Assembly: GCF_014201585.1 (NCBI RefSeq)
Contig: NZ_JACHES010000015.1
Coordinates: 1 to 48,557 of the forward strand
Direction: 5' to 3'
From: Anoxybacillus tengchongensis
GTDB taxonomy: Bacteria > Bacillota > Bacilli > Bacillales > Anoxybacillaceae
Length of the DNA stretch: 48,557 nt
Within the stretch, counting starts at the first letter, position 1. Each line of letters starts with the position of its first letter. Of this stretch, positions 755-48,389 are shown in pieces. The notes under the pieces are model-generated. The model worked only from the letters and a program-made list of their open reading frames with translations, ran no database searches and had not been told where the DNA came from. The translations under genes were made by a program, and so were the position numbers.

Positions 755-771
755 GAACCATTAGCTCAGCA
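755..771 (+). pseudogene. truncated tRNA-Lys 5' fragment
   Basis: Seventeen bases match the first 17 of the intact tRNA-Lys at 890 except for one G-to-A change (GAACC for GAGCC). The match starts at the mature 5' end and stops in the D-loop. No 3' half follows; a structured insert begins at 772. It cannot make a tRNA. Confidence 0.75.
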
Positions 772-889
772 ACGAGCAAAACTTCTTCGAACATGTTACG
801 ATTTGTCCCGACGCACTTGGCATCTTGGCTGTGTTAGTAGAGGAAGGGACAGGTAAAGAAAGATTGAGTAAGTTTTTTTAACTTATAAC
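772..889 (+). other. structured insert A between tRNA-Lys fragment and intact tRNA-Lys
   Basis: It begins ACGAGC and, after 26 nt, forms a 6-bp stem TGTCCC (804-809)/GGGACA (846-851). The 36-nt apical part starts GACGCA and ends GTAGAGGAA. An outer stem AAAACTT (778-784)/AAGTTTT (870-876) can close it. The order, spacing and loop motifs match insert C at 48265, where the main stem is TGCCTC/GAGGCA, so two base pairs covary. No reading frame is apparent. Function unknown; a non-coding RNA or a small structured mobile element are the best guesses. Confidence 0.6.
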
Positions 890-962
890 GAGCCATTAGC
901 TCAGCAGGTAGAGCATCTGACTTTTAATCAGAGGGTCGGAGGTTCGAGTCCTCCATGGCTCA
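890..962 (+). tRNA. tRNA-Lys (TTT)
   Basis: Acceptor GAGCCAT pairs with ATGGCTC; stem TCTGA/TCAGA encloses CTTTTAA. CCA is not encoded. The D-arm has AGCAGG where the second copy (47710) has AGTAGG. Confidence 0.96.
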
Positions 963-968
963 CTGTTT

Positions 969-1043
969 GCGGAAGTAGTTCAGTGGTAGAACACCACCTT
1001 GCCAAGGTGGGGGTCGCGGGTTCGAGTCCCGTCTTCCGCTCCA
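969..1043 (+). tRNA. tRNA-Gly (GCC)
   Basis: Acceptor GCGGAAG pairs with CTTCCGC; loop TTGCCAA. CCA is encoded at 1041-1043. Confidence 0.96.
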
Positions 1044-1044
1044 C

Positions 1045-1117
1045 GGGGCCTTAGCTCAGCTGGGAGAGCGCCTGCTTTGCACGCAGGAGGTCATCGGTTC
1101 GATCCCGATAGGCTCCA
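1045..1117 (+). tRNA. tRNA-Ala (TGC)
   Basis: Acceptor GGGGCCT pairs with AGGCTCC (one G-T pair); loop TTTGCAC. CCA is not encoded. Last tRNA of the first cluster. Confidence 0.95.
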
Positions 1118-1125
1118 TACTACTT

Positions 1126-1156
1126 AAAACCTTAGGTACTACCTAAGGTTTTTTTC
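1126..1156 (+). terminator. terminator of the first rrn-tRNA operon
   Basis: Ten-bp stem AACCTTAGGT/ACCTAAGGTT with a 3-nt loop, followed by a run of seven T. It lies nine bases after the last tRNA. Confidence 0.92.
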
Positions 1157-1193
1157 TGTTTAGTATAGAATAAATATTCAAAAAGTTGTCGAG

Positions 1194-1223
1194 TTGAGCC
1201 AACTGTTTCTCCTCATGTACAAT
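1194..1223 (+). promoter_or_regulatory. sigma-A type promoter of rocF
   Basis: TTGAGC, an 18-bp spacer and TACAAT lie 33 bp upstream of the rocF start. No clear -12/-24 sigma-54 signature is visible here. Confidence 0.55.
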
Positions 1224-1256
1224 AAACATTAGATACAGCAAGGGGAGGAGATCAAG

Positions 1257-2153
1257 ATGAACATCTCTATTATTGGTGTGCCAATGGACTTAGGACAAAC
1301 ACGTCGTGGCGTTGATATGGGACCAAGCGCAATTCGCTATGCGGGTGTAGTAGAGCGTTTGGAAAACTTAAATCATGATATTGAAGATTTAGGTGATATT
1401 CAAATTGGTCGCGCTGAGCGCGTTCAAGATGTAACAAATCCAAAATTACGAAACTTGAAAGCGGTTGCTGAAGCAAATGAAAAGCTAGCTAATACAGTAG
1501 ATGAAGTTGTAACAAGAGGTCGCTTTCCACTTGTTCTCGGTGGTGATCATAGTATTGCGATTGGGACACTTGCAGGAGTGGCTAAACATTACAAAAATTT
1601 AGGCGTCATTTGGTATGATGCGCATGGGGATTTAAACACGGAAGAAACTTCGCCTTCAGGGAATATTCACGGTATGCCGCTTGCTGCAAGCTTAGGACTT
1701 GGTCATCCAGCTTTAACGATGATTGGTGGATATAGCCCAAAAGTGAAACCAGAAAATATTGTGATCATCGGTGCTCGTTCACTTGATGAAGGTGAAAAAC
1801 AACTCATTAAGGAAAAAGGAATTAAAATATATACAATGCATGAGATCGATCGTCTAGGCATGACGAAAGTGATGGAAGAGACGATTGCGTATTTAAAAGA
1901 ACGAACAGACGGTGTACATTTGTCTCTTGACTTAGATGGACTTGATCCACACGATGCACCGGGAGTTGGAACACCTGTAATTGGTGGACTGACGTATCGT
2001 GAAAGTCACTTAGCGATGGAAATGTTAGCTGAAGCACAAATTATCACGTCAGCAGAGTTTGTTGAAGTCAATCCCATTTTAGATGAACGAAATAAAACAG
2101 CTGCAACCGCTGTTGCTTTAATGGGCTCGTTGTTTGGTGAGAAGCTCGTATGA
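1257..2153 (+). CDS. rocF: arginase
   Basis: This 298-residue protein hydrolyses arginine to ornithine and urea, the entry step of arginine catabolism, in the cytoplasm. The manganese-binding motifs of the arginase/ureohydrolase family are intact: GGDHSIAIG near residue 97, DAHGDLN near 122 and SLDLDGLDP near 223. The length is normal for bacterial arginases. The ATG follows a strong ribosome site (GGGGAGG at 1242-1248). The gene stands alone between the rrn-tRNA terminator and a hairpin that overlaps its own stop codon. Here it is not beside rocD or rocE, unlike the B. subtilis rocDEF operon. Confidence 0.96.
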
Positions 2154-2186
2154 GAGGTGGCATGATGCCCCCTCTCGATTTTTTTT
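2152..2186 (+). terminator. terminator after rocF
   Basis: GAGAGG pairs with CCTCTC, with inner GGCAT/ATGCC pairing, followed by eight T. The 5' arm overlaps the rocF stop codon. Confidence 0.85.
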
Positions 2187-2215
2187 AAAAAAATTAACAT
2201 ATTCGTTGCGATTTA

Positions 2216-2243
2216 TGGAACTTTGCTTTATGTTATTCGTATA
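2216..2243 (+). promoter_or_regulatory. sigma-W type (ECF) autoregulatory promoter of sigW
   Basis: TGGAAC (2216-2221), exactly 16 bp, then CGTATA (2238-2243). The known sigma-W consensus is TGAAAC-N16-CGTA, and autoregulation of sigW is established in B. subtilis. There is one mismatch in the -35. Confidence 0.8.
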
Positions 2244-2276
2244 AAATAGTAGCCCCCATGTGGAGGTAAATATTGA

Positions 2277-47455: not shown

Positions 47456-47486
47456 CTCAAGAACTGAACTTTTTAAGGGTGTTTGT

Positions 47487-47561
47487 TGGGCTATAGCCAA
47501 GCGGTAAGGCAACGGACTTTGACTCCGTGATGCGCTGGTTCGAATCCAGCTAGCCCAGCCA
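47487..47561 (+). tRNA. tRNA-Gln (TTG)
   Basis: Same as 670-744, CCA encoded; again followed by a truncated tRNA-Lys copy. Confidence 0.96.
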
Positions 47562-47571
47562 TTAATGTGAC

Positions 47572-47597
47572 GAGCCATTAGCTCAGTAGGTAGAGCA
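47572..47597 (+). pseudogene. truncated tRNA-Lys 5' fragment
   Basis: Twenty-six bases match the first 26 of the intact tRNA-Lys at 47710 without a difference, starting at the mature 5' end and stopping before the anticodon stem. No 3' half follows. Confidence 0.82.
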
Positions 47598-47709
47598 CGA
47601 TCGATTTAGCTTCTTTGAAAAAGCAACAGCGTACCGCTCGAGCTGCTACTTGATTAAGCATACTGAGAGCGGGACGTCAAAAATCTTATTTAAAAACTCT
47701 TTTTGAAAC
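47598..47709 (+). other. structured insert B between tRNA-Lys fragment and intact tRNA-Lys
   Basis: It starts at the ACGATC junction (47597-47602) and has the main stem CCGCTC (47634-47639)/GAGCGG (47667-47672) with a 27-nt apical part. A short outer pairing GATTT (47603-47607)/AAATC (47681-47685) is possible. The overall plan is like inserts A and C, but the sequence differs, and the GTAGAGGAA loop motif is missing. No reading frame is apparent. Confidence 0.5.
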
Positions 47710-47785
47710 GAGCCATTAGCTCAGTAGGTAGAGCATCTGACTTTTAATCAGAGGGTCGGAGGTTCGAGTCCTCCATGGCTCACCA
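47710..47785 (+). tRNA. tRNA-Lys (TTT)
   Basis: Acceptor GAGCCAT/ATGGCTC; loop CTTTTAA; CCA encoded, unlike the copy at 890. Confidence 0.96.
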
Positions 47786-47790
47786 TGTAT

Positions 47791-47874
47791 GCGGGTGTGG
47801 CGGAATTGGCAGACGCACCAGACTTAGGATCTGGCGCCTTTGGCGTGGGGGTTCAAGTCCCTCCACCCGCACCA
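47791..47874 (+). tRNA. tRNA-Leu (TAG)
   Basis: Class II. Acceptor GCGGGTG/CACCCGC; stem CCAGA/TCTGG encloses CTTAGGA; CCA encoded. Confidence 0.96.
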
Positions 47875-47895
47875 GTCGGTCAGTTTCTATCATAT

Positions 47896-47978
47896 GCGGT
47901 CGTGGCGGAATGGCAGACGCGCTAGGTTGAGGGCCTAGTGGGGGCAACCCCGTGGAGGTTCAAGTCCTCTCGGCCGCA
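47896..47978 (+). tRNA. tRNA-Leu (GAG)
   Basis: Class II. Acceptor GCGGTCG/CGGCCGC (one T-G pair); loop TTGAGGG; CCA not encoded. Confidence 0.95.
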
Positions 47979-48037
47979 TCAAGAAAAGCTTGACTTTGAT
48001 TAATGAAACATGATATATTGAAAAGGTCGTTAAAAAT

Positions 48038-48114
48038 GCGCCCGTAGCTCAATTGGATAGAGCATCTGACTACGGATCAGAAGGTTAGGGGTTCGAATCC
48101 TCTCGGGCGCGCCA
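48038..48114 (+). tRNA. tRNA-Arg (ACG)
   Basis: Acceptor GCGCCCG/CGGGCGC; anticodon loop CTACGGA; CCA encoded. Confidence 0.96.
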
Positions 48115-48134
48115 TGTTTTTATTATAATGAAGA

Positions 48135-48211
48135 CGGGAAGTAGCTCAGCTTGGTAGAGCACATGGTTTGGGACCATGGGGTCGCAGGTTCGAATCCTGT
48201 CTTCCCGACCA
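48135..48211 (+). tRNA. tRNA-Pro (TGG)
   Basis: Acceptor CGGGAAG/CTTCCCG; anticodon loop TTTGGGA; CCA encoded. Confidence 0.96.
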
Positions 48212-48233
48212 TTTTGCTAATAATTATGATTAT

Positions 48234-48264
48234 GCGGGTGTAGTTTAGTGGTAAAACCTCAGCC
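48234..48264 (+). pseudogene. truncated tRNA-Gly 5' fragment
   Basis: Thirty-one bases match the first 31 of the intact tRNA-Gly(TCC) at 48390 without a difference, from the mature 5' end to the end of the 5' anticodon-stem strand. No 3' half follows. Confidence 0.85.
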
Positions 48265-48389
48265 ACGAGCGACGCATCGTTGAATAGGCTACGAGTTGCC
48301 TCGACGCATCAATCATCCTTGATTTTACGAGTAGAGGAAGAGGCATGATCGTGCGTAGTGATTGGCTCTGATTTAAAATTAATTAACGT
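48265..48389 (+). other. structured insert C between tRNA-Gly fragment and intact tRNA-Gly
   Basis: It begins ACGAGC and, after the same 26-nt gap as insert A, forms the stem TGCCTC (48297-48302)/GAGGCA (48340-48345). The 37-nt apical part again starts GACGCA and ends GTAGAGGAA, and holds a small hairpin ATCAA/TTGAT around TCATCC. A possible outer helix pairs GAGC and ACGCA near 48267-48276 with TGCGT and GCTC near 48352-48368. Function unknown. Confidence 0.62.

Follow-up and report, generated by a model that had tools for sequence, protein, structure and literature searches.

Bacterial tRNA genes serve as integration sites for prophages and islands, whose insertion inside the gene is accompanied by a duplicated part that keeps the tRNA whole, and they can be interrupted by group I introns. 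Elements of the IS200/IS605 type and their non-autonomous derivatives insert 3' of a short motif in a fixed orientation, with no obvious target duplication at the cut and a hairpin near the end, and REP/BIME and other palindromic repeats with RAYT are short hairpin repeats that are often clustered. Features reminiscent of all of these are combined in a stretch of 48,557 nucleotides from Anoxybacillus tengchongensis (NCBI RefSeq assembly GCF_014201585.1, contig NZ_JACHES010000015.1, positions 1 to 48,557 of the forward strand), referred to here as the window, in which three tRNA genes carry inserts A, B and C. These inserts belong to E1 and E2 (jointly E), which are regarded here, at about even odds (roughly 0.5), as two families of non-coding mobile elements, ~80 nt long and non-autonomous, whose targets are tRNA genes, the tRNA being kept by means of a duplicated 5' part.

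Compared with tRNA-integrating islands, E is only ~80 nt long, has the 5' part of the tRNA duplicated, occurs in about ten tRNA types and forms arrays of copies; it encodes no integrase, array units of ~137-157 bp being too small for such a gene. Insertion 3' of a short conserved motif, as in IS200/IS605-type elements, is seen at the main sites (AGYN, GAGCA or GAG), whereas E is, as far as seen, confined to tRNA genes and comes with a duplicated tRNA 5' part. Group I introns are far longer than E, which lies mostly outside the anticodon loop and leaves tRNA function to a second copy, and Rfam matched no intron covariance core in the window. Unlike REP/BIME, E sits inside tRNA genes rather than between genes and has a long conserved loop. 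It also departs from a classical miniature inverted-repeat transposable element: terminal inverted repeats are absent from E1, whose ends read ACGAGC...GRGRCA in the alignment, and weak in E2, and there is no fixed-length target-site duplication, since the duplicated part extends from close to the beginning of the tRNA as far as the cut and differs from site to site.

Three interrupted tRNA genes and a covarying hairpin

Each of the three units in the window consists of a tRNA leader, a tRNA 5' part (T5), the element, a spacer (x) and an intact copy of that tRNA. Unit A (tRNA-Lys, 755-963) lies 3' of a 5S rRNA gene, and units B (tRNA-Lys, 47572-47785) and C (tRNA-Gly tcc, 48234-48460) lie at the far window end, ahead of an apparent 16S gene start; all three are within tRNA arrays. 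Their parts are as follows, R1 and R2 being the models of E1 and E2.

755-771, + strand: T5 of unit A, 17 nt of the tRNA-Lys 5' part, differing once from the intact copy (GAACC instead of GAGCC), by sequence reading
772-851, + strand: E1 copy A (R1 78.2 bits, E-value 2e-19 in the window; this copy, L003, is among the 69 model sequences)
804-809, + strand: 5' arm of the E1-A stem, TGTCCC, by pairing and covariation
846-851, + strand: 3' arm of the E1-A stem, GGGACA, the element's end, by pairing and covariation
852-889, + strand: x of unit A, first a tRNA-Lys continuation (GGTAAAG for GGTAGAG), then an AT-rich spacer up to the intact tRNA, by sequence reading
890-963, + strand: intact tRNA-Lys (ttt) of unit A, by tRNA prediction
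47572-47597, + strand: T5 of unit B, 26 nt of tRNA-Lys (GAGCC...GTAGAGCA), the final A doubling as E2 model position 1
47597-47676, + strand: E2, insert B (R2 104.8 bits, E-value 8e-27; the window copy is among the 11 model sequences)
47631-47639, + strand: 5' arm of the E2 stem, GTACCGCTC, with one A-G mismatch within the stem
47667-47675, + strand: 3' arm of the E2 stem, GAGCGGGAC
47677-47709, + strand: x of unit B, TC as in tRNA-Lys, then spacer
47710-47785, + strand: intact tRNA-Lys (ttt) of unit B, by tRNA prediction
48234-48264, + strand: T5 of unit C, 31 nt of tRNA-Gly (tcc) ending in CCTCAGCC
48265-48345, + strand: E1 copy C (R1 94.6 bits, E-value 7.8e-24; this copy, L004, is among the 69 model sequences)
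48297-48302, + strand: 5' arm of the E1-C stem, TGCCTC, by pairing and covariation
48340-48345, + strand: 3' arm of the E1-C stem, GAGGCA, the element's end, by pairing and covariation
48346-48389, + strand: x of unit C, spacer ahead of the intact tRNA
48390-48460, + strand: intact tRNA-Gly (tcc) of unit C, by tRNA prediction

Inserts A and C are copies of one ~81-nt element, E1. Both open with ACGAGC (772-777 and 48265-48270) and a 26-nt gap before the stem, which encloses an apical part of 36 nt in A (GACGCA...GTAGAGGAA, 810-845) and 37 nt in C (48303-48339), and the two stems differ by two compensatory pair changes. The initial annotation, made from the letters of the window, had given the coordinates and stems of A and C exactly, and the two base pairs that it saw changing together are there in the sequence. 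Its motif sharing goes beyond chance: GACGCAN{14,44}GTAGAGGAA has 4 matches in the window's own genome and the reversed pattern 0. It had also described the three inserts as one repeated unit extending up to the intact tRNA. The order of tRNA 5' piece, insert and intact tRNA does recur three times, but B lacks the A/C motif and is E2, a related sister family with its own covarying stem, and within each insert the element proper covers just the initial ~81 nt, the remainder being poorly conserved.

An alignment of 69 distinct E1 copies from relatives and the window's own genome (A2), whose selection pattern fixed some letters flanking the stem and left pairing free, defines an element of ~81 nt composed of ACGAGC, a first half with RCWTC..YGAAT..GCT, TGYCYC, the conserved 36-37-nt loop GACGCA...GTAGAGGAA and a terminal GRGRCA. 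In its stem 99.8% of cells are paired, with 33 double changes, values that 0 of 500 shuffles reach, and slid stem partners pair in only 30-62%. Watson-Crick or G-U pairs fill 1701 of the 1728 stem cells in 288 distinct copies collected with a profile from the 69-copy set. In an alignment of 11 E2 sequences (A3), eight pairs of the stem GTACCnnTC/GAnnGGGAC were counted; every cell of these is paired, and two of the pairs show double changes. Hybrid copies joining an E1 front half to an E2 hairpin also exist (L173, L179, L180).

The compensatory change had been taken initially as a sign of a selected RNA structure. A wider alignment upholds the selected structure, the paired columns covarying in both E1 sets, but RNA specifically is unproven: for the three window elements, predicted folding energies are no more favourable than those of shuffled sequences (z +1.32, +0.45 and -0.84). 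The case for structure is therefore carried by covariation, which does not decide between RNA and DNA hairpins. Stem mismatches in the 288 copies (21 G-U versus 14 A-C) show no clear strand preference, and on this ground together with the folding result a DNA hairpin is equally possible. E does not itself fold as a tRNA, ARAGORN and Rfam detecting only the intact tRNAs in the window, and per-type consensus folds of seven sets share no outer helix common to E and x across tRNA types.

Arrangement and distribution in Bacillales

The context of E1 was read from 311 distinct full-length copies in 193 loci, fetched partly from the same species and freed of duplicates by sequence only. A tRNA lies downstream of 298 copies in the fetched DNA, on the same strand in 298 of 298; it begins at most 150 nt away in 210, and the remainder are mostly separated from it by further units. 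In 286 of these 298 copies the left flank is scored as a 5' piece of the downstream tRNA (12 are without a match), with T5 identity of at least 0.9 in 233 and at least 0.8 in 259 of the 286. The other 13 copies comprise five cut by the locus end, seven in the remains of a second tRNA-Arg and one weak antisense match in an rRNA spacer. The main insertion points, directly 3' of AGYN, GAGCA or GAG, fall after positions 31 in tRNA-Gly, 17 and 26 in Lys, 17 in Asn, 14 in initiator Met, 24 in Thr, 24 and 26 in Phe, 17 and 27 in Arg, 27 in Met, 17 in Asp and 17 in Ala; a minority of copies lie elsewhere. E2 obeys the same rule: among 40 copies in 32 loci, mostly the best match from each of 30 genomes, 37 have a downstream tRNA, on the same strand in 37 of 37 and with sites mainly at GAGCA^, and the other three precede a cut-short tRNA-Arg (L242).

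Arrays of up to six near-identical units were read (L036, L038), with a period of ~137-157 bp. After E, the tRNA sequence continues for at least one base in 210 of the 286 units and for eight or more bases in 31. Most of a tRNA 3' half follows T5-E in four loci, that of tRNA-Arg in L142, L041 and L095 and that of tRNA-Gly in L083; one tRNA-Arg copy (L005) holds two elements, reading CTCAGCT-[E1]-GGATAGAGCA-[E2]-ACGG. Two elements in one tRNA copy, and elements with most of a tRNA 3' half attached, speak for insertion. Direct E-E tandems spaced 81-84 nt apart occur in L090 and in L141 (at 2513 and 2594), the second L141 copy being degenerate. In L026 (1463-1826), chimeric Lys units join the left flank typical of one insertion site to the right flank typical of the second, which points to recombination within E. 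The second tRNA-Arg remains (L041, L095, L142, L161, L020), three of which end in most of a 3' half with a shortened anticodon loop, are probably decaying dispensable copies.

Conservation along the unit was profiled in 177 units directly before a tRNA (178 found), pre-filtered for T5 identity of at least 0.8 and a distance of at most 75 nt from the tRNA. T5 agrees with the intact tRNA at 0.93-1.00 at each position (mean 0.972), agreement between leaders drops from 0.82 at -1 to 0.36 at -20, and to the right of E agreement with the continuing tRNA runs 0.76, 0.55, 0.40, 0.35 and then about 0.15-0.37. Restricting the set to the 71 units with leader agreement below 0.45 over 20 nt still leaves T5 at 0.962. 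Under the same pre-filter, T5 and its own tRNA carry the same allele in 102 of 105 comparisons at polymorphic sites, versus 66.7 expected, genome relatedness being uncorrected; within the window, unit A and its tRNA both have CAGCA, and unit B and its tRNA CAGTA. Polarity along arrays is mild, with T5 identities of 0.965, 0.906 and 0.904 in units one to three. A strict +1 start of the duplication was rejected, 14 of 95 single units sharing at least 13 nt of leader and the others little.

E1 was found with R1 in 181 of 397 genomes and 82 of 135 genera of the order, at most 11 candidates being scored per genome, so that the copy numbers obtained are minimum values. Class-wide, in a sample of 398 genomes, of which the number outside the order is not listed, all 15 carriers belong to this order. 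E2 was found with R2 in 70 of 199 genomes and 46 of 97 genera. Named carriers include Geobacillus, Parageobacillus, Anoxybacillus, Aeribacillus, Shouchella, Salipaludibacillus, Evansella, Neobacillus and Cytobacillus, and the window's own genome has five E1 matches (one partial) and three E2 matches (one weaker). A pattern scan of 101 genomes, the own genome included, gave matches in 56; the reversed pattern also matches in some, 0-2 per strand per genome, and some pattern matches outside the family are probably chance or coding. The genome searches thus establish a family that recurs at tRNA genes across one order, and the initial observation is real and larger than first stated.

Neither phages nor plasmids were retained as vehicles. 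Four matches on viral contigs sit among clusters of 10-15 tRNAs and were read as chromosomal flanks of prophages, and one E1 copy used as a query matched no phage record. Two of three matching plasmid records were inspected and carry chromosomal-type genes (rocF, sigW, cdaA; hisD, an SprT-family gene); these records, L228 (NZ_CP015440.1) and L229 (NZ_CP051163.1), also carry E units and are probably misassembled chromosome pieces. Weak E-like matches (17-21 bits) lie antisense in rRNA operon spacers, before 23S, between 23S and 5S, or between the last tRNA and the 16S leader (L095 at + coordinates ~115-200 and ~326-411, L101 at 3699-3768, L149 at 6409-6481, L098 at 67-155). The loop strands of these relatives are swapped, GAGGAA coming first and GACGCA second, and a similar swap is seen in the tRNA-Gly unit of L188.

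Empty sites, kinship and a possible route of insertion

Among nine genomes of the same genus, the site of cluster A is occupied in 3 and empty in 6, and in the seven same-genus loci read for cluster B, E2 is present in 4 and absent from 3. In the compared loci the left leader of the occupied unit resembles the leader of the empty site, and the leader of the intact tRNA, x, is new. The elements are also related across tRNA types. One genome has Thr and Gly units with an identical 81 nt (0 mismatches) and flanks differing at 14 of 20 positions on each side, and a tree of 158 E sequences (those of 270 with group codes) shows 31 changes of genus label, against at least 75 after shuffling, and 49 changes of tRNA label, against at least 91. 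In the three best-sampled genera, E identity averages 0.755 for the same tRNA in another genus, 0.750 for another tRNA in another genus, 0.774 for another tRNA in the same genus and 0.823 for the same tRNA in the same genus. Of 122 E1 copies from these genera, 106 match another tRNA of their own genus better than the same tRNA in the other genera. The exchange of E between tRNA genes thus postdates the separation of the genera, whether transposition or conversion brought it about.

If transposition rather than gene conversion accounts for this kinship, E would enter the front half of tRNA genes in sense orientation, immediately after AGYN, GAGCA or GAG, and the covarying 3'-end hairpin with its conserved loop would be the likely feature recognised by a putative trans-acting enzyme. 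A plain insertion breaks the tRNA; in the usual layout, leader-T5-[E]-x-T5'-T3, a second 5' part (T5') provides an intact tRNA just downstream. That the interrupted copy usually comes first and the intact copy second, together with the foreign x, suggests that the duplication is part of insertion or is strongly filtered, although the tRNA-Arg remnants indicate that this order is not absolute. T5' may originate from long staggered repair, from a tRNA-transcript intermediate or from selection of rare tandem duplications, and the T5 repeats would then allow units to amplify to arrays, to drop out cleanly and to stay alike. It is tempting, at slightly less than even odds, to view E as a new class of mobile element, in which hairpin elements specialised for Bacillales tRNA genes spread between tRNA types, each insertion duplicating the tRNA 5' part, which rebuilds the gene behind the element and would allow E to persist in essential genes, possibly through a tRNA-transcript or single-strand intermediate.

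Several findings weigh against mobility. No mobilising enzyme or autonomous partner has been identified, and none was searched for beyond noting that the units lack room for one. The rule that the interrupted copy precedes the intact one is broken by seven copies downstream of intact tRNA-Arg (L020, L041, L095, L142, L161), and no full-length E1 or E2 was recognised away from tRNA genes or their remains, save the weak antisense rRNA-spacer matches, which is unusual for a transposon. The empty sites can be losses through the T5 repeats: the leader at the empty site of G003 looks like the tail of x in the window's unit, which would fit the scar of a lost unit, and G005 has a unit behind this same leader. 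Among the 286 units there is one identical pair from differing tRNA types, and three equal-length pairs fall within 4 mismatches; so few near-identical pairs imply that recent jumps are rare or that gene conversion may suffice. Identity of E between genera may, moreover, be saturated. Finally, a T5 kept at 0.97 while leader and x diverge can also mean a functional T5-E.

Alternative explanations and significance

This last point leads to the main rival, in which T5-E is a small RNA, a tRNA 5' fragment fused to a conserved 3' domain and cut from the tRNA transcript, with its 5' end near tRNA +1 and its 3' end at the E hairpin, that acts as a tRNA mimic, a decoy or a cis-regulator of the following tRNA. 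Its best argument is that T5 (14-31 nt) and E are conserved and leader and x are not, identity falling at both outer edges. The sense orientation of all E1 (298/298) and E2 (37/37) copies with a downstream tRNA in the locus also fits this view, as does the persistence of units whose 17-31-bp repeats, ~140 bp apart, would be expected to be deleted often. In Asn and Lys site-17 units, the ACGAGC start of E can complete a D stem (GCTC/GAGC), although the predicted consensus shows this for Asn only. However, T5 length and cut point vary between tRNAs, presence is patchy within one genus, and at an unpaired position of the D loop T5 and the tRNA change alleles in step, resembling copying at the DNA level. 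Predicted folding is also no better than shuffles, and a function of this kind is considered possible but unlikely. Of the two branches first offered, a non-coding RNA of tRNA operons or a tRNA-targeting mobile element, the second is judged the better supported.

More doubtful still is passive tandem duplication with gene conversion in tRNA operons, whereby E spread once long ago and short-repeat slippage and conversion among units have since kept E and T5 alike. The arrays of near-identical units, the chimeric units of L026 with flanks from different sites, the local matching of alleles between T5 and its own tRNA and the mild array polarity would all follow from such a process, but it accounts poorly for the presence of E in about ten types of tRNA at recurring site motifs, for two elements in one tRNA copy and for E2 obeying the same rule.

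The initial annotation named Bacillaceae-1 RNA as a family near rRNA operons and suggested a possible relation to the inserts. Bacillaceae-1 (RF01690) is presented as a candidate structured RNA of Bacillaceae (PMC2864571). That this or another known RNA family lies inside the tRNA operons is very improbable, for although the elements share the location in rRNA/tRNA operons of Bacillales, Rfam 15, Bacillaceae-1 included, gave no covariance-model match to them with the whole window at the gathering threshold or with inserts A and C plus flanks at E-values up to 5 (for B the search was confined to the gathering threshold). At gathering, eight further loci holding E1, hybrid or rRNA-spacer relatives gave no match either, nor did one E1 stretch at E-values up to 2. 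Rfam also recognises in the window an ordinary glmS ribozyme (7107-7278, + strand) and an ordinary cobalamin riboswitch (12077-12267, - strand). Literature searches, limited in access to subscription papers, found no description of such elements. Since no Rfam family matches, no paper was found and E lacks the defining traits of the likened systems where these were examined, E is regarded as categorically new, with the reservation that single traits are common with tRNA-integrating islands and IS200/IS605-type elements and that the mobilising system may prove to be of a known kind.

Essential tRNA genes across a bacterial order thus carry an apparently undescribed, structured and recurrent insert, and the tRNA usually survives by means of a duplicated 5' part. 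If E is mobile, it would be among the smallest target-specific elements and would raise the question of what moves it; if it is functional, it would form part of a genome-encoded tRNA-fragment RNA. Either reading bears on the annotation of tRNA operons.

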